Below, in pieces: positions 962 through 23,176 of a DNA stretch of 38,406 bases (positions are counted from its first letter, which is position 1; each line of letters starts with the position of its first letter). Origin of the DNA: Terriglobia bacterium. GTDB lineage: Bacteria > Acidobacteriota > Terriglobia > Bryobacterales > Bryobacteraceae. Location: contig JANYJA010000111.1 of the NCBI GenBank assembly GCA_025358575.1, positions 1-38,406 of the forward strand, in the 5' to 3' direction. A model generated the notes under the pieces. It was not told the DNA's origin. It searched no databases and saw only the letters and a list, made by a program, of their open reading frames with translations. Both the position numbers and the translations under genes were made by a program.

Positions 962-1882
962 GTGATGTCGATAACGCGCCGTACTTTCGTTTCCGCGCTA
1001 ACAGCCGCACCTCTGCTTCGCCCCGCATCGAAGGGCACCGCAATCCGTCTTGGGGGGCCCATTTTCCTGAAGTCGGAAGATCCGCGCGAGCTTGCCAAAG
1101 AGCATCGGCGCCTCAGTTACAGCGCGGCTTATTGTCCCACCGCGAAAGTGGAGGAGCGCGAGCGGGTCCGCGCCATCATCGAGGCCTTCGCCGCTGAGAA
1201 CGTCGTAATAGCCGAAGTCGGCGCGTGGAAAAACATGCTCGATCCGGATGCTTCCGCGCGCAAAGCCAACATCGATTACGTCTCAGAGCGAATGGCGCTG
1301 GCCGAGGCCGTGGGCGCGCGATGCTGCGTTGATATCGCAGGGTCCTACAATGCAAAAGTTTGGTACGGTCCCCATCCGCGCAACCTCTCGCGCGAGTTCT
1401 TCGACGCGACGGTGGAGAATTGCCGCCGCGTGATTGACGCCGTGAAGCCAACGCGCACCAAGTTCACAATCGAGATGATGGGATGGAATTTGCCGGATGG
1501 ACCCGGCCACTATTTGGAATTGATTCGCGCAGTGGATCGTAAAGGCTTCGGCGTCCATATGGATGTGTGTAATGGCGTGAACAGCCCCGAGCGTTTTTAC
1601 AACAACCGCGCGTTCATTCACGAATGCTTTGCGAAGCTTGGGCCGTGGATCGCGTCGTGCCACGCTAAGGACCTAAAGTGGGAGGTCGAGTTAAATGTCC
1701 ATTTCGTCGAAGTGATTCCGGGCCGCGGTGAGATTGACTATGGCACTTATCTCAGCGAACTAGCCGCGCTTCCAATAGACGCACCGCTCATGCTGGAACA
1801 TTTGAAGACAGCTGAAGAATACGATGAGGGGCGCGCATATATTCAGAAGGTCGGTGCGGAGAAGGGATTACGCTTCGCGTAA
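962..1882 (+). CDS. Sugar phosphate isomerase/epimerase-like TIM-barrel protein with Tat-like signal
   Basis: This 306-residue protein belongs to the xylose isomerase-like TIM-barrel (AP endonuclease 2 fold) family. Candidate metal ligands appear at the expected barrel positions: E171 (FTIEMMGW), D201 (VHMDVCNG), H234 (SCHAKDLK) and E279 (LMLEHLK). The N-terminus has a twin-arginine pattern (ITRRTFVSA) followed by a short hydrophobic stretch, which suggests Tat export; many acidobacterial and planctomycete members are exported in this way. Start is GTG 962 or the next codon, ATG 965. The substrate is unknown, most likely a sugar or inositol derivative. The 3' end overlaps the convergent cydB stop by 15 bases. 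Confidence 0.8.
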   Translation: MMSITRRTFVSALTAAPLLRPASKGTAIRLGGPIFLKSEDPRELAKEHRRLSYSAAYCPTAKVEERERVRAIIEAFAAENVVIAEVGAWKNMLDPDASARKANIDYVSERMALAEAVGARCCVDIAGSYNAKVWYGPHPRNLSREFFDATVENCRRVIDAVKPTRTKFTIEMMGWNLPDGPGHYLELIRAVDRKGFGVHMDVCNGVNSPERFYNNRAFIHECFAKLGPWIASCHAKDLKWEVELNVHFVEVIPGRGEIDYGTYLSELAALPIDAPLMLEHLKTAEEYDEGRAYIQKVGAEKGLRFA

Positions 1883-2917
1883 AGGGGGCTGGGTAACGCT
1901 TCGTCGTCCCCAAAAATGCCAGTAAAGAAACGCGAAGTAGCCCAGCGCGAGCAGCACTCCGGGGATAAACCACATCAGCCCGATCTTTAAACCGTAATCG
2001 CCTGCTACGGTGTTGTAGATGGTGAGAGAGCGCGCCGTATTTTCGTTTGACGGCAGCACGTAAGGGAACAATCCAAACGCCGCACTCCCTAGTATCCCGA
2101 TCAGGAAAGCGCAAGACCCGATAAAAGAACGCGTGTCGCGTTTCTTGGTTGAACAGAAACGAACCGCGGCCAAGCCGGCCAGCGCGAGCACCGCAAACAC
2201 CCCGCCCCACGGTTGATCCAGAAATCGCTCCGCAAGATGCGGCTGAACCTGAAAGCTGGCGAAGGTAATAACGATAGTAATCGCAAACACCGCCCACCAA
2301 ACACGCAACCCAAGGCGGCGGCATCGTTCCCGCAGTTCTCCGGCGCTGCGCGCTGCCACCCAAACGGCCCCATGCATCGTAAGAGCCAAGGCCGCGGCGA
2401 CACCGATCAGCACGGTGTACCAGTCGATAATTCCGGGATCTTTGCCTGGCGCGAAATTGGTCCAGAGTGCGAGAAATCCGTAGCCCTCTTCATCAAGAGG
2501 CAGGCCCCGCACCACGTTCCCCAAAGCCGCACCGAAGAAAATCGCGAGCAGCAAGCTTGAGAGGGCGAAGATTACATCCCAGAACGCGGGCCACAAACGG
2601 TCGTGCAGATGGTCGCGAAATTCTACCGCGATGCCGCGCAGCATCAGCAGCCATAACACAATCATCAGCGGTAGATAGAAAGCGCTGAAGCCGCTCGCAT
2701 AGAGCGCGGGGAATGCGAAATAAAGCGTACCGCCCGCGGCGAGCAGCCAGACTTCATTTCCGTTCCAGACCGGCCCGATGGAGGCAAGCACTTCCTTTCT
2801 TTCGGAATCCGTGCGCGCAACGAACAGGTGAACGATGCCCGCGCCCAAATCGAAACCATCGAGCACAACATAAACGACGAGCATGAATGCGACAAGGCAA
2901 AACCAGAGCGCGGGCAT
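1868..2917 (-). CDS. cydB: Cytochrome bd ubiquinol oxidase subunit II
   Basis: CydB is the second membrane subunit of the cytochrome bd quinol oxidase, which reduces oxygen to water in the cytoplasmic membrane at low oxygen. The protein has about eight to nine hydrophobic segments. It carries the family hallmarks near the N-terminus: VLDGFDLGAG and, after it, IGPVWNGNEVWLLAAGG. I place the start at ATG 2917, four bases after the cydA stop, giving 349 residues and starting MPALWFCLV; an in-frame start at 2950 would add 11 uncharged-to-basic residues and overlap cydA. It is co-transcribed with cydA. The 3' end meets the convergent isomerase-like gene with a 15-base overlap. No cydX-like small ORF or cydCD was seen. 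Confidence 0.93.
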   Translation of the reverse strand: MPALWFCLVAFMLVVYVVLDGFDLGAGIVHLFVARTDSERKEVLASIGPVWNGNEVWLLAAGGTLYFAFPALYASGFSAFYLPLMIVLWLLMLRGIAVEFRDHLHDRLWPAFWDVIFALSSLLLAIFFGAALGNVVRGLPLDEEGYGFLALWTNFAPGKDPGIIDWYTVLIGVAAALALTMHGAVWVAARSAGELRERCRRLGLRVWWAVFAITIVITFASFQVQPHLAERFLDQPWGGVFAVLALAGLAAVRFCSTKKRDTRSFIGSCAFLIGILGSAAFGLFPYVLPSNENTARSLTIYNTVAGDYGLKIGLMWFIPGVLLALGYFAFLYWHFWGRRSVTQPPLREA

Positions 2918-2921
2918 CGAA

Positions 2922-4253
2922 TTACACGGGCTCCGCCGCGGTCGGACCATGCTCGATTTCGCGGTGGACGAGGAACAAGAACAGAATTCCGAGCACTGTG
3001 TACATCCCCATGAATCCGATGAGCGTGAAGAGTCCGCTGCCGGCGGAGACGCGCGGCGAGGTGCCCACGGCCGTTCGCATCAGCCCATAAATGAGCCAAG
3101 GCTGCCGTCCCACTTCAGCCGTGATCCAGCCCGCGGTGGTGGCGATATAGGGGAATGGAAACGCGAGCATCAGGAGCCACAGCAGACTTGGCGTGGAATA
3201 CAAGTTGCCACGCCACAAGCGCCACGCGCAGAGCAGCATGATGGCGATCAGAATGGTTCCGAGGCCCACCATGATGTGATAGCAGTAATAAAGCAGGGGG
3301 ATGTTGTCGGGCCATTGGTCGCGCGGAAATTCGTTGAGGCCGCGCACCTTCGCTTCCCAGCGCTGATAGGTCAGGAAGCTCAGCATTTTCGGGATCAAAA
3401 TCGGGTTATCAAGAGTTAGCCGCTCCGTATCGGGCTGCCCGACGAGCGCTAATCCCGCGCCTTGTTCGGTTTTAAAAACCCCTTCCATCGCGGCCAGCGT
3501 GGTGGGTTGGTACTCCGCAACCATCTTGCCTTGGCGGTCTCCCGTTGGAAACAACATCATGATGGTCGCGACGGTTCCGGCGATTACTCCCAGCCGCACG
3601 AACGTTTTTCCGAAAAGCTCACTGCGCCCAGCCAAAATATAGAACGCGCCGAGCGCCGCCATCACAAAACTGCCGGTCACCACCGCGGCGGTCATGTTGT
3701 GCCAGTACTGCCAGAGCGTCCACGGATTGAAAATGAGTGCTTGAAAACTGGACAGAGTGATCTCGCCGTTGTGCCCCAACGCATAACCGACCGGGTGCTG
3801 CATCCACGCATCGGTCGCGATGATGAAAAATCCGGAGAGCCACGATCCCGCGAATACACAGAACGCGGCGAACCAATGGCCCGCTTGGCCGAGCCGCTTT
3901 TCACCAAATATGAACAGGCCCAAAAACGCCGATTCCAGGAAGAAGGAATACACGCCTTCGAGCGCCAGCGTCTGGCCGATCACTCCCCCGGCAGCCTTCG
4001 AAAATCGCGCCCAATTGGTCCCGAACTGAAATTCCATTGGGATTCCAGTCACCACGCCCATTGCGAAATTGATGGCGAAGATCTTGGCCCAGAACCTCGC
4101 CGCGTCGTTGTAATGCGCGTTGCCGGTGCGCCAAGCCATCGTCTTCAAAATGACGATCAAGAGCGCAAGGCCCATCGTCAACTGCGGAAACAAATAGTGG
4201 AAAGTGATCGTGAAGGCAAATTGCAAGCGATGAATCGCGAGGGCGGCGTCCAT
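2922..4253 (-). CDS. cydA: Cytochrome bd ubiquinol oxidase subunit I, short Q-loop type
   Basis: CydA is the haem-bearing, quinol-oxidising subunit of cytochrome bd. The 443-residue length is short compared with about 520 for E. coli CydA. The missing length falls in the quinol-binding periplasmic loop, so this is a short Q-loop enzyme as in Bacillus and CIO-type oxidases. Conserved residues are in place: H19 (ITFHYLF), E99 and E107 (LALEGVYSFFLE), H185 (QYWHNM) and the GW-x-x-x-EVGRQPW motif near residue 390. ATG 4253 starts one base after the alpha-galactosidase stop, an unusual partner, so translation is probably coupled. cydB follows four bases downstream. Whether it is cyanide-insensitive cannot be read from sequence alone. 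Confidence 0.95.
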   Translation of the reverse strand: MDAALAIHRLQFAFTITFHYLFPQLTMGLALLIVILKTMAWRTGNAHYNDAARFWAKIFAINFAMGVVTGIPMEFQFGTNWARFSKAAGGVIGQTLALEGVYSFFLESAFLGLFIFGEKRLGQAGHWFAAFCVFAGSWLSGFFIIATDAWMQHPVGYALGHNGEITLSSFQALIFNPWTLWQYWHNMTAAVVTGSFVMAALGAFYILAGRSELFGKTFVRLGVIAGTVATIMMLFPTGDRQGKMVAEYQPTTLAAMEGVFKTEQGAGLALVGQPDTERLTLDNPILIPKMLSFLTYQRWEAKVRGLNEFPRDQWPDNIPLLYYCYHIMVGLGTILIAIMLLCAWRLWRGNLYSTPSLLWLLMLAFPFPYIATTAGWITAEVGRQPWLIYGLMRTAVGTSPRVSAGSGLFTLIGFMGMYTVLGILFLFLVHREIEHGPTAAEPV

Positions 4254-11615: not shown

Positions 11616-14075
11616 ATGGCAAAGTCTCTGGTAATCGTAGAATCGCCGGCAAAAGCTAAGACGATCAACAAATATTTGGGCAGCAACTTTATTGTGAAGG
11701 CGTCGCTGGGTCATATTAAAGACCTGCCGAAGAAAGACCTCGCGGTAGACGTCGAGAACGGCTTCAAGCCGCATTACGTGGTGATCGAGGGCAAGAAAAA
11801 GCTCATCAGTGAGTTGAAGGCGGCGGCGAAAAAAGTAGACAACATCTACCTGGCGGCCGATCCCGATCGCGAAGGCGAGGCAATCTGCGCCCATTTACAA
11901 GAAGAGCTGGATGGCTCGGTGAATGGGGTTCGGCCAGCTAAAGCGCCGAAGATTTTCCGGGTGATGTTCAATGAAATCACTAAGAACGCGATTCAGAAAG
12001 CGTTTGAGACGCCGCTCACAGTAAACGTACACCTGGTGGAAGCGCAGCAGGCGCGGCGAGTGCTCGACCGGTTAGTGGGCTACAAGATTTCGCCGCTTCT
12101 TTGGGATAAGGTTCGGCGTGGCCTCTCGGCAGGACGCGTACAGACGGTTGCAGTGCGCGTGATCGTCGAACGCGAGCGGGAAATTAAGGCCTTTCAGAAG
12201 CAAGAATACTGGACGGTGGATGTCGATCTGAACGCGAAGAAGGCACCGCTGTTGACGGCGCGGCTCTTCAAGCAGAATGACGCCACGCCGGTGATCTCGA
12301 CCCAGGAAACGTCCGATGGACTGGTGGCGGATCTGGGGGACGTGGAGTACAAAGTTCGCTCGGTCGGAACGAAGGAGAAGCGCCGGAATCCGGTAGCACC
12401 CTTTATTACGTCCACGCTGCAGCAGGATTCATCGCGCAAACTGCGGTTCAGCGTGAAGCGCACCATGATTCTGGCGCAGCGCCTGTATGAGGGCGTCGAA
12501 CTCGGCAAGGAAGGCTCGGTCGGGCTTATCACTTATATGCGTACGGATTCCACCCGCGTGTCGAATGACGCCGTGGAAGAATTGCGGGCGTTCATCGGGG
12601 AGAAGTACGGCCCTCAATATCTGCCGAAGGACCCGAACGTTTATAAGACCAAGAAGGCGGCGCAGGATGCGCACGAAGCAATTCGCCCGACGTCCGCAAT
12701 GCGGACGCCCGACGACATGGCGAAGCATCTCGCGGAGGATGAGCTGAAGCTTTACCGGCTGATCTGGATGCGCTTTGTGGCATCGCAGATGATGCCCGCG
12801 GTTTTCGATCAGACGACGATTGACGTGGAGACGAAAGGCGCGTCGGGGACGGATTATCTGTTCCGGGCAACGGGTTCGGTTCCGAAGTTCGACGGATTCC
12901 TGGCGGTCTACGAAGAAGGCAAAGACCAGCGCGATGAAGACGATGAGGAGTTGAAGCACCGGCTGCCGCTGGTTACCGAGGGCGAAGTATTGCGCTTCAA
13001 GGCTCTGCGTCCGGAGCAGCACTTCACCGAGCCGCCGCCGCGCTACAACGAAGCCACGCTGGTAAAAAAGCTGGAAGCGGACGGGGTGGGGAGGCCTTCG
13101 ACATACGCGTCGATCCTGTCAACCATTCAGGAACGCGAGTATGTCACCAAAGAGGGCGGCCGGTTCACTCCGACGGAACTGGGCATGGTGGTGTGCGACC
13201 TACTGCTGGAGAGTTTCAGCGACATCTTTGAAGTGAAGTACACGGCGCGGATGGAAGAAGAGCTTGACGAGATCGAAGAGGGCAAGCTCGACTGGCGCAC
13301 GGCGATGTCGGAGTTCTACGAGCGGTTCACGAAGGATCTGGACCATGCCGCCGAGCACATGACCGACATCAAGCGGATGGAGCGCCCGACGGACGAAATC
13401 TGCGTGAAGTGCGGCAAGCCGCTGGTCATTAAGTGGGGCAAGCACGGGAGCTTTATCGCATGCACCGGGTATCCCGAGTGCACGTATACGCGCGAGTTGA
13501 CGGTAGACTTGCCCGATATAGAAGGAGCCGACCTTAGCGAGCAGGGTGAAGAAGAATACTGCGAAAACTGCGGACGCCCGATGGTGCTGAAAAAGGGCCG
13601 GTTCGGGACGTTTTATGCCTGCACCGGATATCCGGATTGCAAGACCACGAAGCAGATCGGCGGCACGCAGAAGAAGGCCGACGTAAAGCTGGATGAGAAG
13701 TGCCCGAACTGCGGCAACAACATGGTGCAGAAGTTCGGGCGATTCGGCGAGTTTACCGCCTGCAGTAATTATCCGACCTGCAAGTATGTCAAGCAGAAAA
13801 CAATTGGCGTGAAATGTCCAGACTGTTCCGAAGGCGAAGTGATTGAGCGTCGGTCGAAGAAGGGCAAGACCTTTTACGGATGCAACCGGTATCCGGATTG
13901 CAGTTTCGTGGCTTGGGGAAAGCCGGTTCCGGAGAAGTGCCCGGCGTGCGGCAGCCCGTACATGATTGAGAAGTTTTTGAAGGCGGGGCCGGTGCTGCAG
14001 TGCCCCAACGCGGAGTGCAAGTTCAAGAAGGAAGTGGAGCCGGAACCGGCGGCGGTTGAGCTGCTCGCGACATAG
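11616..14075 (+). CDS. topA: DNA topoisomerase I (type IA)
   Basis: Topoisomerase I relaxes negative supercoils by cutting one strand through a 5' phosphotyrosine. The 819-residue protein has an N-terminal TOPRIM domain (LVIVESPAKAKTI, with acidic ADPDREGE at residues 81-88). The catalytic Y307 lies in GLITYMRTDSTRVS, and SAGRVQTVAVRVI is the expected domain II/III motif. The C-terminal third has five successive four-cysteine zinc-ribbon modules, each of the form C-x2-C or C-x2-CS followed by CxxYPxC or similar, at about residues 595-800. E. coli has three of the zinc type. It starts 49 bases after dprA, with AGGAAG upstream of the ATG. Its last 53 bases overlap the 3' end of pqqE on the other strand. 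Confidence 0.97.
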   Translation: MAKSLVIVESPAKAKTINKYLGSNFIVKASLGHIKDLPKKDLAVDVENGFKPHYVVIEGKKKLISELKAAAKKVDNIYLAADPDREGEAICAHLQEELDGSVNGVRPAKAPKIFRVMFNEITKNAIQKAFETPLTVNVHLVEAQQARRVLDRLVGYKISPLLWDKVRRGLSAGRVQTVAVRVIVEREREIKAFQKQEYWTVDVDLNAKKAPLLTARLFKQNDATPVISTQETSDGLVADLGDVEYKVRSVGTKEKRRNPVAPFITSTLQQDSSRKLRFSVKRTMILAQRLYEGVELGKEGSVGLITYMRTDSTRVSNDAVEELRAFIGEKYGPQYLPKDPNVYKTKKAAQDAHEAIRPTSAMRTPDDMAKHLAEDELKLYRLIWMRFVASQMMPAVFDQTTIDVETKGASGTDYLFRATGSVPKFDGFLAVYEEGKDQRDEDDEELKHRLPLVTEGEVLRFKALRPEQHFTEPPPRYNEATLVKKLEADGVGRPSTYASILSTIQEREYVTKEGGRFTPTELGMVVCDLLLESFSDIFEVKYTARMEEELDEIEEGKLDWRTAMSEFYERFTKDLDHAAEHMTDIKRMERPTDEICVKCGKPLVIKWGKHGSFIACTGYPECTYTRELTVDLPDIEGADLSEQGEEEYCENCGRPMVLKKGRFGTFYACTGYPDCKTTKQIGGTQKKADVKLDEKCPNCGNNMVQKFGRFGEFTACSNYPTCKYVKQKTIGVKCPDCSEGEVIERRSKKGKTFYGCNRYPDCSFVAWGKPVPEKCPACGSPYMIEKFLKAGPVLQCPNAECKFKKEVEPEPAAVELLAT

Positions 14076-15162
14076 GCGGGTCGATGCGGTATACCCATCC
14101 CGATTGACTCGCGCCTTCGCGCCCTGCGTTCACGCGCTGCACCACCTCTTCAACAATGCCATGCGCCGGGGCGAGCGTGCAGACTGGGTCCGTGGCTTTG
14201 TCGTCGCCCGTTAGCAAGAACGCCTGACAGCGGCAGCCCCCGAAATCCCGCTCGCGGCGTTCGCAGCTGCGGCACGGTTCCGGCATCCAGTCTTCACCGC
14301 GGAATCGGGCAAAAGCCGGCGATTCCTCCCAGATCCAGCGGAGTGATTGTTCGCGGACGTTTGCGAATTGAATTCCAGGAATTACACCCGCGGCATGGCA
14401 CGGCAGGACCCGTCCAGCGGGGTCAATCAGCATCAACTGCCGCCCCCACCCGTTCATGCATGGTTTTGGATATTTCGCATAATAATCGGGCAAAACGAAT
14501 TCAATCCGCAGGCGGCCTTTGAGACGCTCTTGCGCAGCTTCGAGAGTCTGAACGCAACGGCGCAGTTGATCGCGCGTGGGCAGCAGCGCGTCCCGATTGC
14601 GAAGCGCCCAGCCATAGTACTGCACATTTGCGATTTCCAGACGCTGTGCCCCGCTCCGTTCCGCGAACCCAATCATCTCGTCCAGGCGGGCGAGATTGCG
14701 GCGGTGCACCACGATGTTGATGGTGAACCCGATGCGTCGTTTACGAATGATCTCGGCCAGACGCACCTTGAGCGCGTGCGCGCGGGTTCCGGCGAACTCA
14801 TTTGCTTCGGATTCTTCCACGTCCTGAAAGCTCAGCTGAATGTGATCGAGGCCAGCCGCGATGAGAGCGTCGAGACGCGCTTCATCCAAACCCACACCTG
14901 AGGTAATTAAATTTAAGTAAAGGTCCGCTTTTCGTCCGGCGCTTACGAGATCCAAAATATCAGCCCGCGCCATCGGTTCGCCTCCGGTGAGATGCAGTTG
15001 CAGGACACCCATTGCCGCTGCCTGGTTGAAGATCGAAATCCAGTCGCTGGTCGCCAACTCGCCGGAACGATGCTGCATTTCGAGCGGATTCGAGCAATAC
15101 ACGCAATGCAGCGGGCAGCGATGGGTCACTTCCGCGATCAAGGCTTGGGGCGTGTATTTCAT
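14023..15162 (-). CDS. pqqE: PqqA peptide cyclase, radical SAM/SPASM enzyme
   Basis: PqqE makes the Glu-Tyr carbon-carbon bond in PqqA, the first step of pyrroloquinoline quinone synthesis, with PqqD as peptide chaperone. The 379-residue protein has the radical SAM cluster motif C16-x3-C20-x2-C23 (THRCPLHCVYCSNPL), followed by HLTGGEP (57-63). The SPASM domain supplies C235, C255, C297, C300, C310, C312 and C328 for auxiliary Fe-S clusters, in the order expected for PqqE (EPCRSC then GGCRCQAF). ATG 15162 overlaps the pqqD stop by four bases. It is the last gene of the operon. Its tail, rich in Pro and Ala after residue 355, overlaps topA by 53 bases. Confidence 0.97.
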   Translation of the reverse strand: MKYTPQALIAEVTHRCPLHCVYCSNPLEMQHRSGELATSDWISIFNQAAAMGVLQLHLTGGEPMARADILDLVSAGRKADLYLNLITSGVGLDEARLDALIAAGLDHIQLSFQDVEESEANEFAGTRAHALKVRLAEIIRKRRIGFTINIVVHRRNLARLDEMIGFAERSGAQRLEIANVQYYGWALRNRDALLPTRDQLRRCVQTLEAAQERLKGRLRIEFVLPDYYAKYPKPCMNGWGRQLMLIDPAGRVLPCHAAGVIPGIQFANVREQSLRWIWEESPAFARFRGEDWMPEPCRSCERRERDFGGCRCQAFLLTGDDKATDPVCTLAPAHGIVEEVVQRVNAGREGASQSGWVYRIDPPMSRAAQPPPVPAPLPS

Positions 15163-15440
15163 GCGTCCTCGACGACACCCCGGTCGCGCAGGCGCATAAG
15201 AATGCCGATTACGTCGCTCTCAATCCTCGCGGCGTTTTCGGAAGGAAAGAGACGGGACAATTCATCGACAATGGTCCCGACCGTGCGCTGCCCGTCACAG
15301 AGTTCGAGAATCACGCGCGCCGGACCTTTCATCTTTAACGCGCCTTCAGGCACGAGCAGCATGTCTTTCTGACTTTCCGAACTCCCCAGCCGGCAACCAG
15401 GACCGAGGCGCGGCACTGTTGCGGACACAATCTGGTTCAC
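15159..15440 (-). CDS. pqqD: PqqA-binding peptide chaperone PqqD
   Basis: PqqD is a small RiPP recognition element that binds the PqqA precursor peptide and delivers it to PqqE. This 93-residue protein has the family layout: a beta-strand start (PRLGPGCRL), the conserved LLVPEGALKMKGPARVILEL stretch, then CDGQRTVGTIVDELSRLFP and a helical end with LRDRGVVED. The start is GTG 15440, which overlaps the pqqC stop as GTGA; its own stop overlaps the pqqE start as ATGA. Translation is therefore likely coupled from pqqC through pqqE. The size matches stand-alone PqqD rather than a PqqCD fusion. Confidence 0.95.
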   Translation of the reverse strand: MNQIVSATVPRLGPGCRLGSSESQKDMLLVPEGALKMKGPARVILELCDGQRTVGTIVDELSRLFPSENAARIESDVIGILMRLRDRGVVEDA

Positions 15441-16147
15441 GGTAAGAGGGCTCCAGGCGGCGGCCAGCCAGGTTCCACATAGGCGAAGTAAATGGCGTCA
15501 AGTTGCGCCCACAAGATGTCGCACTTCGCGCGCAAAGCGGCAACGGCGAGGTCTTGTTCGGCCGAAGTCCGGGCGTGTTCGGTCACCCACGCCAGCGCGA
15601 ACTGCGCGTCTTCGGGAGCTTGCGTCAAACGGGCGTTGAAATAAGTCAAACCACCGGACAGCCATGGATAATGCAGCTTCAGCCGGTCCACGCGCAGAGA
15701 GATGAGGTCGCGAGAAAACATCTCGGTGAGCGAGGATGCAACGGCCTCGAGAAAACTGTGCTTCGAAACTAGTTCGAGGTACGCGTTGACGGCGTACCGG
15801 ACTCCGGGGAGCACTTCAGCGCCCGAAACCACGCGAGCGCGTTCGAGTCCAGTGGCCTCCGCAAGCTGAATCCATTTTTCGATGCCCCCTGGGTGCACGC
15901 CGTCGCCGTCGTGGTCCACAATCCGCTTTCTCCATGCGACACGAAAGGCGGGGTCTTCGCTCCGGGAAAGGATCACGGCGTCTTTGATGGGAATAATGCT
16001 CTGGTAGAAGTACCGATTCAGCGCCCAGGCCTGAAGCTGAGCACGCGTCAGTTTTCCTTCATGCATCAGAAGATGGAAGCGGTGGCGGTGATGATAGCGC
16101 TCCGGGCCGACGCCGCGTAAACGCTGTTCCAGGTCCGTGGGCGTCAC
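15437..16147 (-). CDS. pqqC: Pyrroloquinoline-quinone synthase PqqC
   Basis: PqqC is the cofactor-less oxidase that closes the last ring and oxidises AHQQ to PQQ. The 236-residue all-helical protein carries the expected active-site segments: an early HHRHRFHLLMHEG, WALNRYFYQSIIPIKDA, RIVDHDGD, SKHSFLEAVASSLTEMFS and, near the end, AKCDILWAQLDAIYFAYV. These provide the His, Arg, Tyr and Lys residues known from the Klebsiella enzyme. The start is GTG 16147, overlapping the pqqB stop (GTGA). The 3' end overlaps the pqqD start. The protein has normal length and no fused PqqD. Confidence 0.96.
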   Translation of the reverse strand: MTPTDLEQRLRGVGPERYHHRHRFHLLMHEGKLTRAQLQAWALNRYFYQSIIPIKDAVILSRSEDPAFRVAWRKRIVDHDGDGVHPGGIEKWIQLAEATGLERARVVSGAEVLPGVRYAVNAYLELVSKHSFLEAVASSLTEMFSRDLISLRVDRLKLHYPWLSGGLTYFNARLTQAPEDAQFALAWVTEHARTSAEQDLAVAALRAKCDILWAQLDAIYFAYVEPGWPPPGALLP

Positions 16148-17052
16148 AGGTCGATCTCCATTCCATCGTACGCAACTTCCCAGCCGGAATCGCGGACAGT
16201 TCGATATTCCGGGCTTTCTTCGTCCAGCATTGGATTTGTATTGTTGATATGGATAAAGATCTTCCTGGCGCGGGTGAGCGTCGCCAAGCGTTCCAGGCTG
16301 CCGCCCGCACCCGAAATAGGAATGTGGCCGATCTGCAGCGCCGTGCGGCCAAGTCCCGGAATATGCATGGGCTCGCCATTGCTCCAGAACGTGCCGTCAA
16401 AAAGCAAAACATCGCAGGATTCTAGGCGCTCAATCAAAGCCTCTGGAACACTTCCGCAGCCGGGCAGAAACGCCAGTTTCCCGCCACCCGATTCCGGTGA
16501 TAGAAGCAGTCCGATATTGGACTCTTCGGGATCGAATGCAGCCGCGCGCGTCTTGCTCACGTAACCGGGAAATGAATCGACCAGCGGCACGGCTTCCACG
16601 CGGGTGCCGCCGGTTGTGAACGCACGGTCGATGGGAATGTCATGCCAGTGCACTTGGCCCGCGAAGCGCTTCAAGACTCCGAACAGGCTGTTGTCTTCGG
16701 TAAGAATCCGGCGAATCGCGGTTGTGGCATGAATCTGAAAGGAATGAAATTCACGCAGCAAGAGCAGGCCAAGGATCTGGTCCACTTCGGCGGAAGTTAC
16801 GATGACGCCAGCGATTGGAGAGCGGCGCCCATTGCTCGGCCAGAGTTCCGGTGAGGCCTCAATCTGCAACCGCAGATCTGGCGACGCATTGACTAGTGCC
16901 CAGTTGTCTAAATCGCAACTGAAAACAAGCTGGGTTTGAGTGCGCGCGGTGCCGGAGAAATGACCTTTCCGAATGCTGAAACAATTGGGGCAGGAACAGT
17001 TCCACTGGGGAAAGCCACCTCCGGCGGCACTACCCAGGATTTTTACCCGCAT
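16144..17052 (-). CDS. pqqB: PqqB, metallo-beta-lactamase-fold hydroxylase of PQQ synthesis
   Basis: PqqB has been described as an iron-dependent hydroxylase acting on the Glu-Tyr intermediate. The 302-residue protein has the family start KILGSAAGGGFPQWNC with C19, C21 and C24 (structural zinc site) and the family end FIHINNTNPMLDEESPE plus EVAYDGMEI. One position is odd: in characterised PqqB the segment after the third strand reads T-x4-DH-x2-GLL, but here it is TSAEVDQILGLL with Q92 where His is usual. This may alter the metal site, or it may be a lineage variant. ATG 17052 has no strong Shine-Dalgarno. pqqA lies 86 bases upstream, and the gene runs into pqqC with a four-base overlap. Confidence 0.95.
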   Translation of the reverse strand: MRVKILGSAAGGGFPQWNCSCPNCFSIRKGHFSGTARTQTQLVFSCDLDNWALVNASPDLRLQIEASPELWPSNGRRSPIAGVIVTSAEVDQILGLLLLREFHSFQIHATTAIRRILTEDNSLFGVLKRFAGQVHWHDIPIDRAFTTGGTRVEAVPLVDSFPGYVSKTRAAAFDPEESNIGLLLSPESGGGKLAFLPGCGSVPEALIERLESCDVLLFDGTFWSNGEPMHIPGLGRTALQIGHIPISGAGGSLERLATLTRARKIFIHINNTNPMLDEESPEYRTVRDSGWEVAYDGMEIDL

Positions 17053-17081
17053 GCGAGGGAAAGGGGTGAAATCAGATCAAG

Positions 17082-17125
17082 AAAAACTGACGCCGGCGAG
17101 CACGGCAAAGTCATCACTGGCGCCG
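17082..17125 (-). terminator. Possible weak attenuator between pqqA and pqqB
   Basis: On the minus strand a CGGCG (17125-17121) can pair with CGCCG (17098-17094), and an overlapping ACGGC/GCCGT pairing is also possible. A T5 run (complement of 17082-17086) follows seven bases after the stem. In known pqq operons pqqA transcript exceeds that of later genes, so partial termination here would make sense. The stem is short with a long loop, so the call is tentative. Confidence 0.25.
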
Positions 17126-17138
17126 TTTTGAGAGAATT

Positions 17139-17216
17139 TTAGAAATCGGCGTTGCTGTAAGAATTGATTTCGCAGCTCAGGCAGATTTCTTCGACCGTAG
17201 GCGTTTCCCAGTTCAT
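17139..17216 (-). CDS. pqqA: PQQ precursor peptide PqqA (25 residues)
   Basis: PqqA is the ribosomal peptide whose Glu and Tyr side chains become PQQ. The frame from ATG 17216 to TAA 17139 encodes MNWETPTVEEI followed by CLSCEINSYSNADF. The crosslinked pair is E16 and Y20 in E-I-N-S-Y, the invariant E-x3-Y spacing of PqqA. Length (22-29 is usual) and the MxW start with an EEIC stretch match PqqA of Methylobacterium type. AAGGAAG lies about 7 bases upstream of the ATG as a good ribosome site. It is first in the pqqABCDE order, 86 bases before pqqB. It is too short to be found by ordinary ORF length cut-offs. Confidence 0.93.
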   Translation of the reverse strand: MNWETPTVEEICLSCEINSYSNADF

Positions 17217-17272
17217 TGGATTCTTCCTTTTATCCAGCAAGTTGCGGATTCATTCAGATTACCATAGCTCCA

Positions 17273-18496: not shown

Positions 18497-18599
18497 ATCG
18501 TACGCGGAAAGATCGTATTCTCTCGGATCTTCTAAGAAACATCGGGCGTAAGCGGGGGAGAATTAGCTCCAGCGCGACTATGGATTTAGAACATCACGC

Positions 18600-19199
18600 G
18601 TGGAAAGCAAGATAAAACAGCGCACGCCAGAGTCGCCTGGGTTTGAAGGTATTGCCGAAGACCGCAAACTCGTCTCGGCGATTCTGGCTGGCGACCGGAA
18701 AGCTACGGCCGAATTCGTCGCACGCTACAGCGACCGGATTTTCGGTTACGTCTGGCACAGGATGCTGCCACGCACCGATCTGGTCGAGGACTTGGTTCAA
18801 GATATTTTCCTCAAGGCCTGGAGAAGTTTGGCGCAATTTCGATATGAATCCGACCTCGCGAACTGGCTGCTCGGCGTAGCCCGCCATCGCGTGGCGGAGC
18901 ATTATCGCAGGCGACTGCGAGAATCGCTCGAGCAGGTGGAACCCAATGAACTAACAGACGAGCTCGCTGGAATTGAGCCGCCCTGGGATGAGGAATTAGA
19001 CCGGCAGCGAGTACGCGAGCGAACGCAATTGATTCTAGCCACTCTGCCTGAAGATTACAGCATTGCGTTGCAGTGGCGGTATTGGGAGAAGTGCACCACG
19101 CGCGAGATGGCCGTGCTTACGGGCAAAACAGAGAAGTCAATGGAGAGGCTGTTGGCGCGGGCCAGAGAGGCTTTTCGCAAGAGGTGGGATCATGAGTGA
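18600..19199 (+). CDS. ECF-type RNA polymerase sigma factor
   Basis: The 199-residue protein has sigma-70 region 2 at about residues 37-101, including RIFGYVWHRM, DLVEDLVQDIFLKAW and the FRYESDLANWLLGVARHRV stretch. It also has region 4 at about 140-198, with a helix-turn-helix in CTTREMAVLTGKTEKSMERLLARAREAF. Regions 1 and 3 are absent, as in ECF (extracytoplasmic function) sigma factors. The start is GTG 18600, because no in-frame ATG precedes region 2. Its stop TGA overlaps the next gene's ATG region by eight bases, so it is translationally coupled to a small Cys/His protein that may be its regulator. Its target promoters are not evident in the window. Confidence 0.92.
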   Translation: MESKIKQRTPESPGFEGIAEDRKLVSAILAGDRKATAEFVARYSDRIFGYVWHRMLPRTDLVEDLVQDIFLKAWRSLAQFRYESDLANWLLGVARHRVAEHYRRRLRESLEQVEPNELTDELAGIEPPWDEELDRQRVRERTQLILATLPEDYSIALQWRYWEKCTTREMAVLTGKTEKSMERLLARAREAFRKRWDHE

Positions 19200-19530
19200 C
19201 CGTTCGCGGGACGACCGATGGATGGACGAAGTGGGGGACCGAACGATGGCATTCAGTATGCCGGCTCCGTCGCGATTCAAGGCGAAGCTCTACTCGCGAC
19301 TCGTTGAGGCGCAGGCGCAATCCACTGGCCTGGCACCCTTATCGCAATCGAGCGCAAACGGTTTCGGCCTCTGCATATTCGAGAAATTGGTTCACATTGC
19401 GCCTGTTGGCGCGGCCGTTGCAACGCGCAATCCATGCCGGATTTGCCACGCACGCGTGATGGCTGAGCGCCTGGAACACGCGCCGATCTATTGGCCGCAT
19501 TGCCCCTACGTGCAATTTCAAAATCGATAG
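19192..19530 (+). CDS. Small sigma-coupled Cys/His-rich protein of unknown function
   Basis: ATG 19192 lies inside the last codons of the ECF sigma gene (overlap of eight bases), and the frame runs 112 residues to TGA-free open end at 19530. It has no signal peptide or membrane segment. The N-terminal 45 residues are charged and contain APSRFKAKLYSRLVEAQ. After a Ser/Ala linker comes a conserved-looking C-terminal module: GLCIFEKLVHIAP, then NPCRICHARVMAE and PIYWPHCPYVQFQNR. Candidate metal or redox ligands are C61, C82, C85, H86, H96, H103 and C104. CxxCH is also a haem c motif, but there is no export signal, so zinc binding is more likely. Coupling suggests an anti-sigma or accessory role; I do not recognise the family with certainty. 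Confidence 0.75.
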   Translation: MSDRSRDDRWMDEVGDRTMAFSMPAPSRFKAKLYSRLVEAQAQSTGLAPLSQSSANGFGLCIFEKLVHIAPVGAAVATRNPCRICHARVMAERLEHAPIYWPHCPYVQFQNR

Positions 19531-19647: not shown

Positions 19648-20331
19648 TTAGAAGTACTTCACAAACCCAAACAGGTTCCGGAAACTTGCTAGCATCCGGT
19701 CGCCAGGCGGCGACAACTGCGCGCTGATTGGATTCGAGCGCGCGGTCTCGGCGAAAGAATACCGAAAGGCCCATCCGCGATACACGCGAAGATCAATACC
19801 GACTGCGACGTGCAAAGCCACTGCTGCGGAATCAAAGCGCTGAGGCCGTGGAATGCCGTTTGACGAAGATTGGCTTGTGGGGACCGCTTTCAAGCAAACC
19901 ACGCCCGTGCCCACCGACAGAAAGGGCCGTGCCCAACTCGACCGCTGGCGAAAATAGAGCAACAGGCTGGCCAAACCCGAATACTGCCGGATCGAGAAAG
20001 CCTGCTGGTAGAAAGCCGTGGGTAAAGCTTGCAACGACGCGAGTGCCGCGTCATTCCGGTTCCACAAGTAATCCACCTGGGTGCTGAAATAATCGTTCCA
20101 ATGAACGCCGGCGAGAAGGTCAATCGTCGGTCCGTTCTCCGGCTTATAGGAGGAGGCGCTCAACGCCGGCGGATGAAGAACCGTTTTTCCGTCGGCGGAA
20201 AGCGCATCAATTCCACCGAGCCCTCCTGCAAAGAAGCGGCTTTGGTCGGCTCCGCACACTGGCAGCCCGAGCGTCAGTGAAAGCATCACGCCCGCAAGTA
20301 TTGCCAGATGAAATCTGATGCAAAAGAACAA
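19648..20331 (-). CDS. Outer-membrane beta-barrel-like protein
   Basis: This 227-residue protein starts with a signal peptide (hydrophobic residues 8-24, then GLPVCGA). Alternating hydrophobic/aromatic strands follow, such as PTIDLLAGVHWNDYFSTQVDYLW, GLASLLLYFRQ, RPFLSVGTGVV, LHVAVGIDLRVYRGWAFRYSF. It ends with an aromatic Phe (FGFVKYF), as outer-membrane barrels recognised by BAM do. The likely fold is an eight-stranded porin/OmpA-like barrel. The TTG at 20331 is the outermost start; a later GTG/ATG near 20289-20286 would still leave a short signal. It sits 14 bases downstream of the lactonase-like gene and probably shares its transcript. Function unknown. Confidence 0.7.
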   Translation of the reverse strand: MFFCIRFHLAILAGVMLSLTLGLPVCGADQSRFFAGGLGGIDALSADGKTVLHPPALSASSYKPENGPTIDLLAGVHWNDYFSTQVDYLWNRNDAALASLQALPTAFYQQAFSIRQYSGLASLLLYFRQRSSWARPFLSVGTGVVCLKAVPTSQSSSNGIPRPQRFDSAAVALHVAVGIDLRVYRGWAFRYSFAETARSNPISAQLSPPGDRMLASFRNLFGFVKYF

Positions 20332-20345
20332 TCTTCTAGATTACG

Positions 20346-21446
20346 TCAGCGCGCGGCGAGGCCGGTCGCGGAGAGATCCAGAGTTCCGAATGTCCCGCTA
20401 TCCGAAAGGCTTCCGTCCTGGTGGACGCGGTATCCCTGCAGGGTTCCGGCTTGGCCGTTAAGAATATAAAGGAAGCTGCTGTCGCGGGTCATATCCATAT
20501 CCGTGGGCCCCGCACCGGCCGCGGCCGCGATCCCATTGCCAATCACATGCAAGGAGCCATCATGATCCAGCAGATAAGCCGAAAGGTTGTTGCTCGCCGT
20601 ATTCGATACATATACATAGTGATTGTCTTTCGTCACCGCAATCCAGCACGCGGCAGCCTGCCCGTTGTTCACGGGACCGGTAATTAATTGCAGCGTACCG
20701 CTGGAGGAGACATTGTACGAAGAAACGGCGCTTTGGCCGGCGGTACCGCCAAACGCGTCAGTAACAAGCAAATGGCCATTTCCGTCGAACAAAAAACCGA
20801 ATGGAGTTTGTCCCGTGGATGGCTGGGGGTTTGGCCCCACCAGCGTTCCATCCGTTTGAACCACGTACGTGTCAATCAGGTTTGTGGCCTTCTCGGTCGT
20901 GAGCAGCAGCCCCCCGTCGTTGCTGAATCCAATCTGGGGTGCGACCGGCGACGCCGTGCTGAGCGGCCGCGTAGAATTCGGAATGGCCGCGAGTCGGCCT
21001 TCAAGCAAACGGAAACCTGTTACATTCGCGGGGCTGCCGGCGTTCAGCACGTACACCAAACCGTTATAAATGGCGATGCTCTCCGGCTGCGCGCCGCCGG
21101 AAGGCGTAACACTCACGAGTTCGGGCCTGCCTCCGCCGACTTCAAATACCGAAATGGAGTTATCCCCGGCGTTGACGGTGAGCAGCCACCGGCCCCCCTT
21201 CGTCATTTGCACGGCATTGCTTGAGCCCAGTGCCGACCCCGTGCCTGCGCCTCCAGTTGGGAGCGATGAATCCCACGTCAACGCTCCGTTAGCAGCCCGG
21301 CGAAATGTGACGAGCTGGTTTAGTGGCGCGGTATTTGTCATCGTGTATACTTCGCCGGGACTAGAATCCCTCGCGCTGTCCACGTTTTGACCTTGCATCA
21401 GCAAAGCGCAAAGCGGCAGGATCGTAAAATTCAGTAGTTTCTTCAT
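20346..21446 (-). CDS. Secreted beta-propeller protein, lactonase/YVTN family
   Basis: The 366-residue protein has a signal peptide (MKKLLNFTILPLCALLMQGQ) and then about seven repeats of a beta-propeller blade. Repeated elements include GRWLLTVNAGDNSISVFEVG, NGLVYVLNAGSPANVTGFRL, HYVYVSNTASNNLSAYLLD and SSFLYILNGQAGTLQGYRV. This pattern (YV-x-N-x2-S-N-x-L-S-x-Y) is that of the 6-phosphogluconolactonase-like / YVTN family. Export argues against a cytoplasmic pentose phosphate role. Similar proteins in acidobacteria are usually of unknown substrate. AAGGAG lies 12 bases before ATG 21446. It is divergent from the secretin gene and upstream of the OMP-like gene. Confidence 0.85.
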   Translation of the reverse strand: MKKLLNFTILPLCALLMQGQNVDSARDSSPGEVYTMTNTAPLNQLVTFRRAANGALTWDSSLPTGGAGTGSALGSSNAVQMTKGGRWLLTVNAGDNSISVFEVGGGRPELVSVTPSGGAQPESIAIYNGLVYVLNAGSPANVTGFRLLEGRLAAIPNSTRPLSTASPVAPQIGFSNDGGLLLTTEKATNLIDTYVVQTDGTLVGPNPQPSTGQTPFGFLFDGNGHLLVTDAFGGTAGQSAVSSYNVSSSGTLQLITGPVNNGQAAACWIAVTKDNHYVYVSNTASNNLSAYLLDHDGSLHVIGNGIAAAAGAGPTDMDMTRDSSFLYILNGQAGTLQGYRVHQDGSLSDSGTFGTLDLSATGLAAR

Positions 21447-21610
21447 GGCTATACATGTCTCCTTGGTCTCGAGTCCTTCCTGTGGAAGGAGTCTTGTGGA
21501 TAGTCGCTCCCAGGACCGATATCCCCCGACAACGTCAAAACTTTTTTGTAGTCATTCGGACAAAATTCCATAAACCTGCACGCCCGGCTTGCGCTATCCG
21601 TCATATCTAT

Positions 21611-23176
21611 TTGCAACGATTAGCGATACTTACAGCAGTTCTACTCTGTTGTGCTCATGTGGCAATGGCATCGCCTGCTTCAGAACTTTATAAGCGGGGC
21701 CGCAAAGCCGAACTTGCCGGGGAAATGTCGCGTGCGTATCTGCTTTACGCGGAAGCGGCGGCCCTGGAACCGCACAAGCACGGTTACTGGCAAAGAGCGG
21801 ATGCAGTGCGCTCGCGGGCGGCCATGGAATCGAAGCCGAAGCTCGCCGCCGACGCTGAACCGGCAGCAGACTCCGCGTTGCCCGATGAACCGCCGCATTT
21901 CGACAGCATGACGGCGAAGGACCTGGCGGAAGCGCGCCAGCCAAGACCGGCTAATCTTCTGCAGGCTAAGCCGGGCCGCCAGAATATCGATATCCGGGGC
22001 GATGGTAAAGCGCTCTTCGAGCAAGTGTCCGCTCGCTTCGGGCTCCAGTCCGTGTTTGACAGCGACTATACTCCCACTCCGTCTTTTCGGTTTCGCATGG
22101 AAGACGCGGATTACCGCGATGCGCTTCATGGCCTTGAAGCCGCCACTAACTCCTTTGTGGTTCCACTGTCGTCGAATTTGATAATGGTGGCGGTAGACAC
22201 CATGGAGAAGCGCAACGACCTTGAACAGACCATGAGCGTGACGGTTCCGGTGCCTCAAGCGCTCAACAACCAGGAACTCATTGAGATGGCGCAAGCCATT
22301 CGCCAAACCGTCGGTATCGAAAAAATGTCTTGGGACGTGGCGGCTGGGCAAGTTTTCATTCGCGACCGCGTGTCACGCGTACTCGCCGCTCAGAAGCTGT
22401 TTCAGGATTTGCTCACGTACCGCTCGCAGGTGGTGATTGAGCTGCAGTTTATTGAGGTTCACGCAAGCGACATGCTCACTTACGGATTCGATCTGCCGAG
22501 TAATTTTCCGCTGGTATTCCTCGGGCAGTTCCTGAACTATAAGGGTTCGATCCCCTCCGCCCTGAGTGGTCTGGCCCTGTTCGGCGGCGGCCGCACGTTG
22601 TTAGGAATCGGGCTCACCGACGCCAGTTTCTTCGCCAACATGAGCAAAACGTCCGCCCGGACACTGCTGAAGACTGAGATTCGTTCCGTGGATGGCCAAC
22701 CCGCTACCCTAAAGATTGGCGACAAATATCCGGTTCTTACAGGCGGCTACCTGGGCACCATCACCCAGCCGGGAGCTGTGTTCCGGCCGCCGCCATCCTA
22801 CACGTTCGAAGATTTAGGGATCAGCCTGAAAGTGACCCCCCACGTGCATGGAATGAATGAGGTCTCTCTGGATATCGAAAGCGAATTTAAGGTTTTGACA
22901 GGGCAAGCGCTTAACGGCGTGCCAATTATTTCGAACCGGCAAATTAACTCAAAGGTGCGGCTGATTAACGACCAATGGGCGATTGCCGCAGGATTGATGA
23001 CGGAGTCAAATACAAAAACAATTACCGGGATGGGCGGACTGTCGCGGGAGAAACAGAAGGATCGTGCGGAGGTGCTGGTGCTGATGAAGCCCCGTTTGAT
23101 CGGGCTCCCCCCGGATCAGATCGTGACGCAGCCGTATCGGATTGGATCGGAATCGCGCACGCTCACACCACTCTAA
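21611..23176 (+). CDS. Secretin-like outer-membrane protein (type II/III secretion family)
   Basis: The C-terminal half matches the bacterial secretin family: VVIELQFIEVHASDMLTYGFDL, then KIGDKYPVLTGG, LKVTPHVHG, and the signature NGVPIISNRQINSKVRLINDQWAIAAGLM. Ahead of it are a short TPR-like segment (SELYKRGRKAELAGEMSRAYLLYAEAAALEP) and an N-domain with an AMIN/N0-like DIRGDGKALFEQVSARFG. I chose TTG 21611 because it places QRLAILTAVLLCCAHVAMA directly at the N-terminus as a signal peptide. An in-frame ATG at 21455 would add 52 residues and almost touch the divergent gene. The protein is then 521 residues. No other secretion or pilus gene is nearby, so it is an orphan. Partners must be elsewhere. 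Confidence 0.82.
   Translation: MQRLAILTAVLLCCAHVAMASPASELYKRGRKAELAGEMSRAYLLYAEAAALEPHKHGYWQRADAVRSRAAMESKPKLAADAEPAADSALPDEPPHFDSMTAKDLAEARQPRPANLLQAKPGRQNIDIRGDGKALFEQVSARFGLQSVFDSDYTPTPSFRFRMEDADYRDALHGLEAATNSFVVPLSSNLIMVAVDTMEKRNDLEQTMSVTVPVPQALNNQELIEMAQAIRQTVGIEKMSWDVAAGQVFIRDRVSRVLAAQKLFQDLLTYRSQVVIELQFIEVHASDMLTYGFDLPSNFPLVFLGQFLNYKGSIPSALSGLALFGGGRTLLGIGLTDASFFANMSKTSARTLLKTEIRSVDGQPATLKIGDKYPVLTGGYLGTITQPGAVFRPPPSYTFEDLGISLKVTPHVHGMNEVSLDIESEFKVLTGQALNGVPIISNRQINSKVRLINDQWAIAAGLMTESNTKTITGMGGLSREKQKDRAEVLVLMKPRLIGLPPDQIVTQPYRIGSESRTLTPL

Follow-up and report, generated by a model that had tools for sequence, protein, structure and literature searches.

A soluble Cys/His protein encoded with an ECF sigma factor in the Bryobacterales, proposed as a new sequence family of anti-sigma factor

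Introduction

A stretch of 38,406 nucleotides from a contig of a Terriglobia bacterium of the order Bryobacterales, referred to here as the window, encodes an extracytoplasmic function (ECF) sigma factor whose gene overlaps that of a small Cys/His protein. Is this second protein a soluble anti-sigma factor of a kind unlike those already named and, if so, which genes would the sigma factor serve? The original prediction, made from the DNA alone, was that the protein is not a classical transmembrane anti-sigma factor and could be a soluble redox- or metal-responsive sigma partner belonging to a family yet to be described.

A frequent means of recognising the soluble anti-sigma factors of ECFs is the signature Hx3Cx2C, which is given for the class I zinc anti-sigma (ZAS) domain in the available portion of PMC7406223. 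The kinds of soluble anti-sigma factor that appear in the available portions of two reviews are ZAS, partner-switch, mechanosensing and Asp23-type systems (PMC8999054, PMC8103513). A family that is without Hx3Cx2C and unnamed in Pfam or NCBIfam would escape recognition by that signature. Here, we describe the sigma factor and its partner, their joint occurrence, the promoter-like motif that accompanies them and the genes that may be their targets.

Results

An ECF sigma factor and its partner are encoded by overlapping genes

The sigma gene (18600-19199, + strand) is an open frame of 199 aa with a GTG start, the start codon being uncertain. Its product matches Pfam Sigma70_r2 (4.5e-12) and Sigma70_r4_2 (3.8e-10), in agreement with the original identification, and the solved structures that it matches include SigH, SigE, CnrH and SigW. 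The same two domains, regions 2 and 4 only, as is characteristic of an ECF, were found in 19/19 of the ECFs that are paired with a partner. Against a profile of these paired ECFs, the one in the window's own genome reaches 256 bits, compared with at most 75 for the other 13 ECFs found there, and on these profile scores it forms a separate group. Six of the 13 precede PF13490 matches. No description of this ECF/partner pair was found in the literature searched, which included PMC8999054, PMC3174227, PMC8103513 and PMC7406223, some of it available in part and none of it including the 2021 ECF classification, in which the paired ECF may already have a group number.

The partner gene (19192-19530, + strand) overlaps the sigma gene by 8 bases (ATGAGTGA) and encodes 112 residues; its assignment draws on the open frame, on a family profile and on adjacency to the sigma gene, and we propose that its product is an anti-sigma factor. 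When the sequence was reread, the coordinates, the overlap, the length and the presence of C82-x2-C85-H86 were all as originally claimed.

The partner and the paired ECF occur together

Searching 101 genomes with the single partner sequence gave a match at E 0.01 in 13, the window's own genome included. The candidates L012 and L013 (E 0.001 and 0.005), which have no adjoining ECF frame and no Cys motif, were dropped as chance matches. A scan of public contigs yielded five partner loci, all from metagenome-assembled genomes of Acidobacteria, Terriglobia or Bryobacterales, and a scan of viral contigs yielded no relative. With a 15-member profile, the partner was found in 35 of the 257 genomes of the window's order, and a 19-member profile of the paired ECF found that protein in the identical 35. 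In a class sample of 349 genomes the partner was present in 20 and the ECF in 21, with 20 shared, the extra ECF genome (G739) being without a partner. A sample of the phylum, with 396 genomes, gave a match to the partner profile in the window genome alone.

Forty-one loci were read, and two were set aside to leave 39 distinct ones: L018, a copy of L055 with an identical partner, and L082 (genome G022), in which the sigma frame continues into that of the partner, the partner being read as 116 aa (L005). The partner lies directly 3' of the ECF in 39/39 of these loci. The distribution across the order is identical as well, and on this point the original prediction stands: homologues lying mainly away from sigma genes, which would have refuted it, were not found. 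The two genes overlap by 1-17 bases in 33 loci, are separated by 3-8 bases in five and are frameshifted in one (L080), figures that depend on a choice of start codon that favoured short overlaps. Across 33 loci, distances between sigma factors correlate with distances between partners (r 0.646, compared with at most 0.238 in 2000 permutations), and this correlation partly reflects shared descent. In the class sample, seven genomes outside the order have the ECF; a full partner is encoded in five of them, one truncated ahead of the Cys module in G100 and none in G739, so some lineages can do without the Cys module. The sigma frame of G739 (locus L150, 5341-5943) starts late, and among the paired-type ECFs it alone lacks a partner.

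The partner has a conserved Cys/His set and no recognised domain

Thirty-seven partners were aligned, excluding those of L080, which is frameshifted, and L075, which has a shortened sigma frame. By a simple hydropathy rule, as distinct from a transmembrane predictor, no clear membrane segment was found in any of them: the 19-residue Kyte-Doolittle mean is at most 1.56, and this highest value is that of the window protein. On this rule, the partner is not a classical transmembrane anti-sigma factor, as had been claimed.

The Cys/His set of the partner is C61-x20-C82-x2-C85-H86-x17-C104, all codons being on the + strand. C61 (codon at 19372-19374) is invariant, being kept in 37/37 aligned partners, while C82, C85 and H86 (codons within 19435-19449) are kept in 36, 35 and 36 of the 37, and C104, which belongs to a CPY motif (codon at 19501-19503), in 36. 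The original prediction had placed a metal- or thiol-sensing module in C82-x2-C85-H86 together with PHCPY. Its Cys positions and H86 are conserved, but at H103, the His of PHCPY, just 9/37 partners have His and 17 have G, and the invariant C61 had been overlooked. Departures from the set include C85S in L064 and the truncated partner of G100 (L081), which ends before the Cys module and retains only C61. In six loci, L074 to L079, the partner ends in CGH and so has one extra Cys and one extra His. The N-terminal unit, AP-x2-L-x3-I-x-SL/AL, occurs twice in the partners of L058, L069 and L070, which are 145-153 residues long, the similarity of the second copy being weak; the repetition of this unit in these three members hints that it may be a binding module.

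Neither the window partner nor 15 members of its family gave a Pfam or NCBIfam match above cut-off, and the PDB held no match up to E 10, whether a single sequence or a profile was used. None of the 37 partners has a His at the position four residues before C82, so that all are without the zinc anti-sigma signature Hx3Cx2C, and hhalign comparison of the partner profile with eight PF13490 matches from the window's own genome gave a probability of 0.1. No link by sequence to a known anti-sigma domain was therefore found in Pfam, NCBIfam, the PDB or the PF13490 profile comparison. AlphaFold2 models built from six-sequence alignments had mean pLDDT values of 55.0 and 48.5 (two models). Based on these comparisons, we propose that the partner represents a new sequence family. 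The idea of a soluble sigma partner from an undescribed family is supported in part, by the pairing at 39/39 loci, by the conservation of its Cys/His positions other than H103 and by the want of a description in the literature searched.

A promoter-like motif precedes the sigma gene and a nearby signal-peptide-like frame

Motif discovery upstream of 34 sigma genes, six loci having been left out in advance and L075 having no usable frame, looked for two short blocks 15-18 bases apart. The pattern GGGGG..CGAC stands upstream of 31/34 of these genes, compared with at most 6 in three runs on shuffled sequence. Column counts define it as GGGGGA, 14-16 bases and CGAC, with 28/34 sites exact by the script's pick; that pick passed over the true site in L049 and took a wrong one in L051. 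The spacer is nearly without information except for W at the two columns after GGGGGA and S before CGAC.

Counted over all 39 loci, allowing one mismatch in GGGGGA but none in CGAC, the motif lies 5' of the sigma gene in 36, and another copy lies 5' of a nearby signal-peptide-like frame, called by a hydropathy rule and not by SignalP, in 29, including two loci (L076 and L078) where all such second sites have one mismatch. Exact matches occur before the sigma gene in 32 loci and before the signal-peptide-like frame in 28, against averages of 0.8 and 1.1 for 71 permuted motifs; the highest permuted controls, with 20 and 19 loci, correspond to AGGGGG, the same sites in a shifted register. Many loci also have one-mismatch sites with no suitable frame after them. 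The sigma site is missing from three loci. L069 and L070 have an exact site 5' of a propeller gene that stands upstream of the sigma gene; in L078 no motif stands where it would be expected, and the first bases of the contig are unlike those of its close relative L076. Five loci outside motif discovery were also read; four have the motif before the sigma gene, and in the fifth, that of G739, it lies 14 bases after the sigma frame and before a propeller gene.

In the window, an exact site, GGGGGA-N15-CGAC, is present at 18554-18578 (+ strand), 21 bases 5' of the sigma start codon. A second exact site of the same form lies at 21503-21527 (- strand), 5' of a gene for an exported beta-propeller protein and 56 bases before its ATG. 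This second site is not cleanly intergenic, because long open frames overlap 21503-21527, among them the longest-ORF call of a divergent gene at 21455. By reading, the divergent frame (21455-23176, + strand) is secretin-like; the start given to it by longest ORF overlaps the second motif, so that its true start may lie further in.

The window's genome contains 12 exact sites, compared with 7 for the reversed pattern, and the ten beyond the two in the window lie in open frames of at least 200 codons. Searching ten genomes with the narrower GGGGGAWT-N13-14-CGAC gave 31 sites, the reversed control giving 3, and 10 of the 31 are at the pair's locus; the stricter GGGGGAWT form matches neither site in the window. 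Twenty of the 21 off-locus sites were read, two from the window's genome and 18 others, the one left out being in G178 (C49), and by our judgement none stands before a clear exported gene. All but two of those read lie in open frames of at least 200 codons, as do some true sites. The off-locus sites count against a strictly local regulon, and targets distant from the pair's locus may exist.

The neighbouring genes encode exported and outer-membrane proteins

The gene behind the second site (20346-21446, - strand) encodes an exported lactonase-type beta-propeller (PF10282, 3.6e-20) and is our proposed target. On the same strand, 14 bases 3' of it and convergent to the sigma-partner pair, lies a gene for an outer-membrane beta-barrel (19648-20331; PF13505, 1.1e-07), whose start codon is TTG in the longest ORF. 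In 35/39 loci, a barrel gene belonging to one family is found downstream of the pair in convergent orientation, within about 1.1 kb in 33. The motif near the barrel gene faces away from it (32 regions), with the exception of L016, where a one-mismatch site faces it.

Ten representatives of the target proteins were scanned, and the matches were to NosD or beta-helix, Spond_N, Lactonase, DUF7482 and NHL-type propeller domains; one representative had a weak barrel match and one had no match. In L058 and L062 a divergent exported gene lies upstream of the sigma gene on the - strand with an exact motif of its own, that of L058 encoding a DUF7482 protein, and in L067 a divergent barrel-like gene likewise has its own motif.

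The window contains two further groups of frames that we named by reading. One is a cluster resembling that for PQQ biosynthesis (14023-17240, - strand), comprising frames like pqqE (14023-15162), pqqD (15159-15440), pqqC (15437-16147) and pqqB (16144-17052) and a possible short pqqA at 17139-17240 (- strand). The other consists of two adjoining frames at 1868-4253 (- strand) that read like the subunits of a cytochrome bd oxidase.

Discussion

Based on these observations, we believe that the pair is probably an ECF sigma factor with its own soluble, metal- or thiol-binding anti-sigma factor, the sigma factor driving its own operon and one adjacent exported-protein gene. An autoregulated sigma factor with a co-encoded regulator is the usual layout of ECF/anti-sigma genes. 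In our model, the partner would be made together with the sigma factor from the overlapping genes and would keep it inactive in the cytoplasm, probably by means of its N-terminal part (about residues 1-45). The C-terminal module of C61, C82, C85, H86 and C104 would bind a metal, either zinc or possibly an iron-sulphur cluster, or would serve as a thiol switch, and a cytoplasmic signal acting on this module would release the sigma factor. Once free, the sigma factor would read GGGGGA-N14-16-CGAC and so transcribe its own operon and one nearby exported-protein gene; in the window, the targets would be the propeller and barrel genes. Computation shows the co-occurrence and pairing, the conserved residues and the motif at its two places; binding to the sigma factor, its inhibition, the metal, the signal and the reading of the motif by this sigma factor are what we infer.

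A broader proposal, to which we would give even odds of being correct, is that the partner defines a new class of soluble anti-sigma factor. Such a protein would combine an N-terminal sigma-binding arm with a metal or Fe-S module of four Cys and one His that is unrelated to ZAS, and would control a lineage-specific ECF that has a promoter code of its own and a regulon confined to one locus, the exported target being exchanged between lineages while the motif, the sigma factor and the partner stay.

Gene pairing and co-occurrence suit any obligate partner, and the sequence does not fix the sign of its effect. The partner might instead be a positive cofactor or stabiliser, binding to the sigma factor, perhaps in the presence of metal only, and required for the activity of that factor. 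However, partners that are co-encoded with ECFs are mostly inhibitors, and G739 retains the ECF without any partner, though with a late-starting ECF frame; we regard a positive role as improbable. Similarly, overlapping genes and a shared promoter imply joint expression only, as would be the case for an effector that is made with the sigma factor and has no part in regulation, for example, a metal or redox protein serving the exported target. Such an effector would be expected to follow its target, whereas the targets differ among loci, from beta-helix, Spond_N and Lactonase proteins to DUF7482 proteins and NHL propellers, and the sigma factor and partner remain constant. This exchange of targets under a constant pair counts against the effector, which we consider an unlikely explanation.

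It is also conceivable that the partner is a strongly diverged class I ZAS domain, given that it is small and soluble, contains CxxC and adjoins an ECF, and that PF13490 matches follow 6 of the 13 other ECFs in the same genome. However, Hx3Cx2C is missing from every aligned partner, the profile comparison with the genome's own PF13490 matches gave a probability of 0.1, and 15 family members passed through Pfam and NCBIfam with no match above cut-off; a hidden ZAS domain would thus be very surprising. We therefore favour a soluble anti-sigma factor with a Cys/His module of its own.

Should this be correct, the partner would add a type of cytoplasmic sensor in the Acidobacteria, soil bacteria that are abundant but poorly understood, and the exchange of an exported target while the switch stays constant would be unusual in regulatory evolution. 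The system provides a predicted regulator, a predicted promoter and a predicted target, and is directly testable.

Among the known systems, ZAS proteins offer the first comparison; the examples given in the available portion of PMC8999054 are ChrR, with ECF11, RshA-type proteins, with ECF12, and the ZAS protein that regulates ECF270, a group represented by an Acidobacterium. Like these proteins, the partner is small, soluble and encoded with an ECF, and it has conserved Cys and His residues. Unlike them, it is without Hx3Cx2C, uses another set of Cys residues and has no profile similarity to the ZAS domain. In following the ECF gene, the partner gene resembles those of membrane anti-sigma factors of the RskA/RseA type, but its product has no membrane segment. 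WhiB-like proteins are small, soluble, four-Cys proteins that act via the housekeeping sigma factor; the partner is likewise small and soluble with four Cys residues, but their spacing differs and it has no Pfam match. Finally, CnrY is membrane-bound, whereas the partner is soluble and matches nothing in the PDB up to E 10, yet in the partner, as in CnrY, a short N-terminal arm may suffice to hold the ECF.
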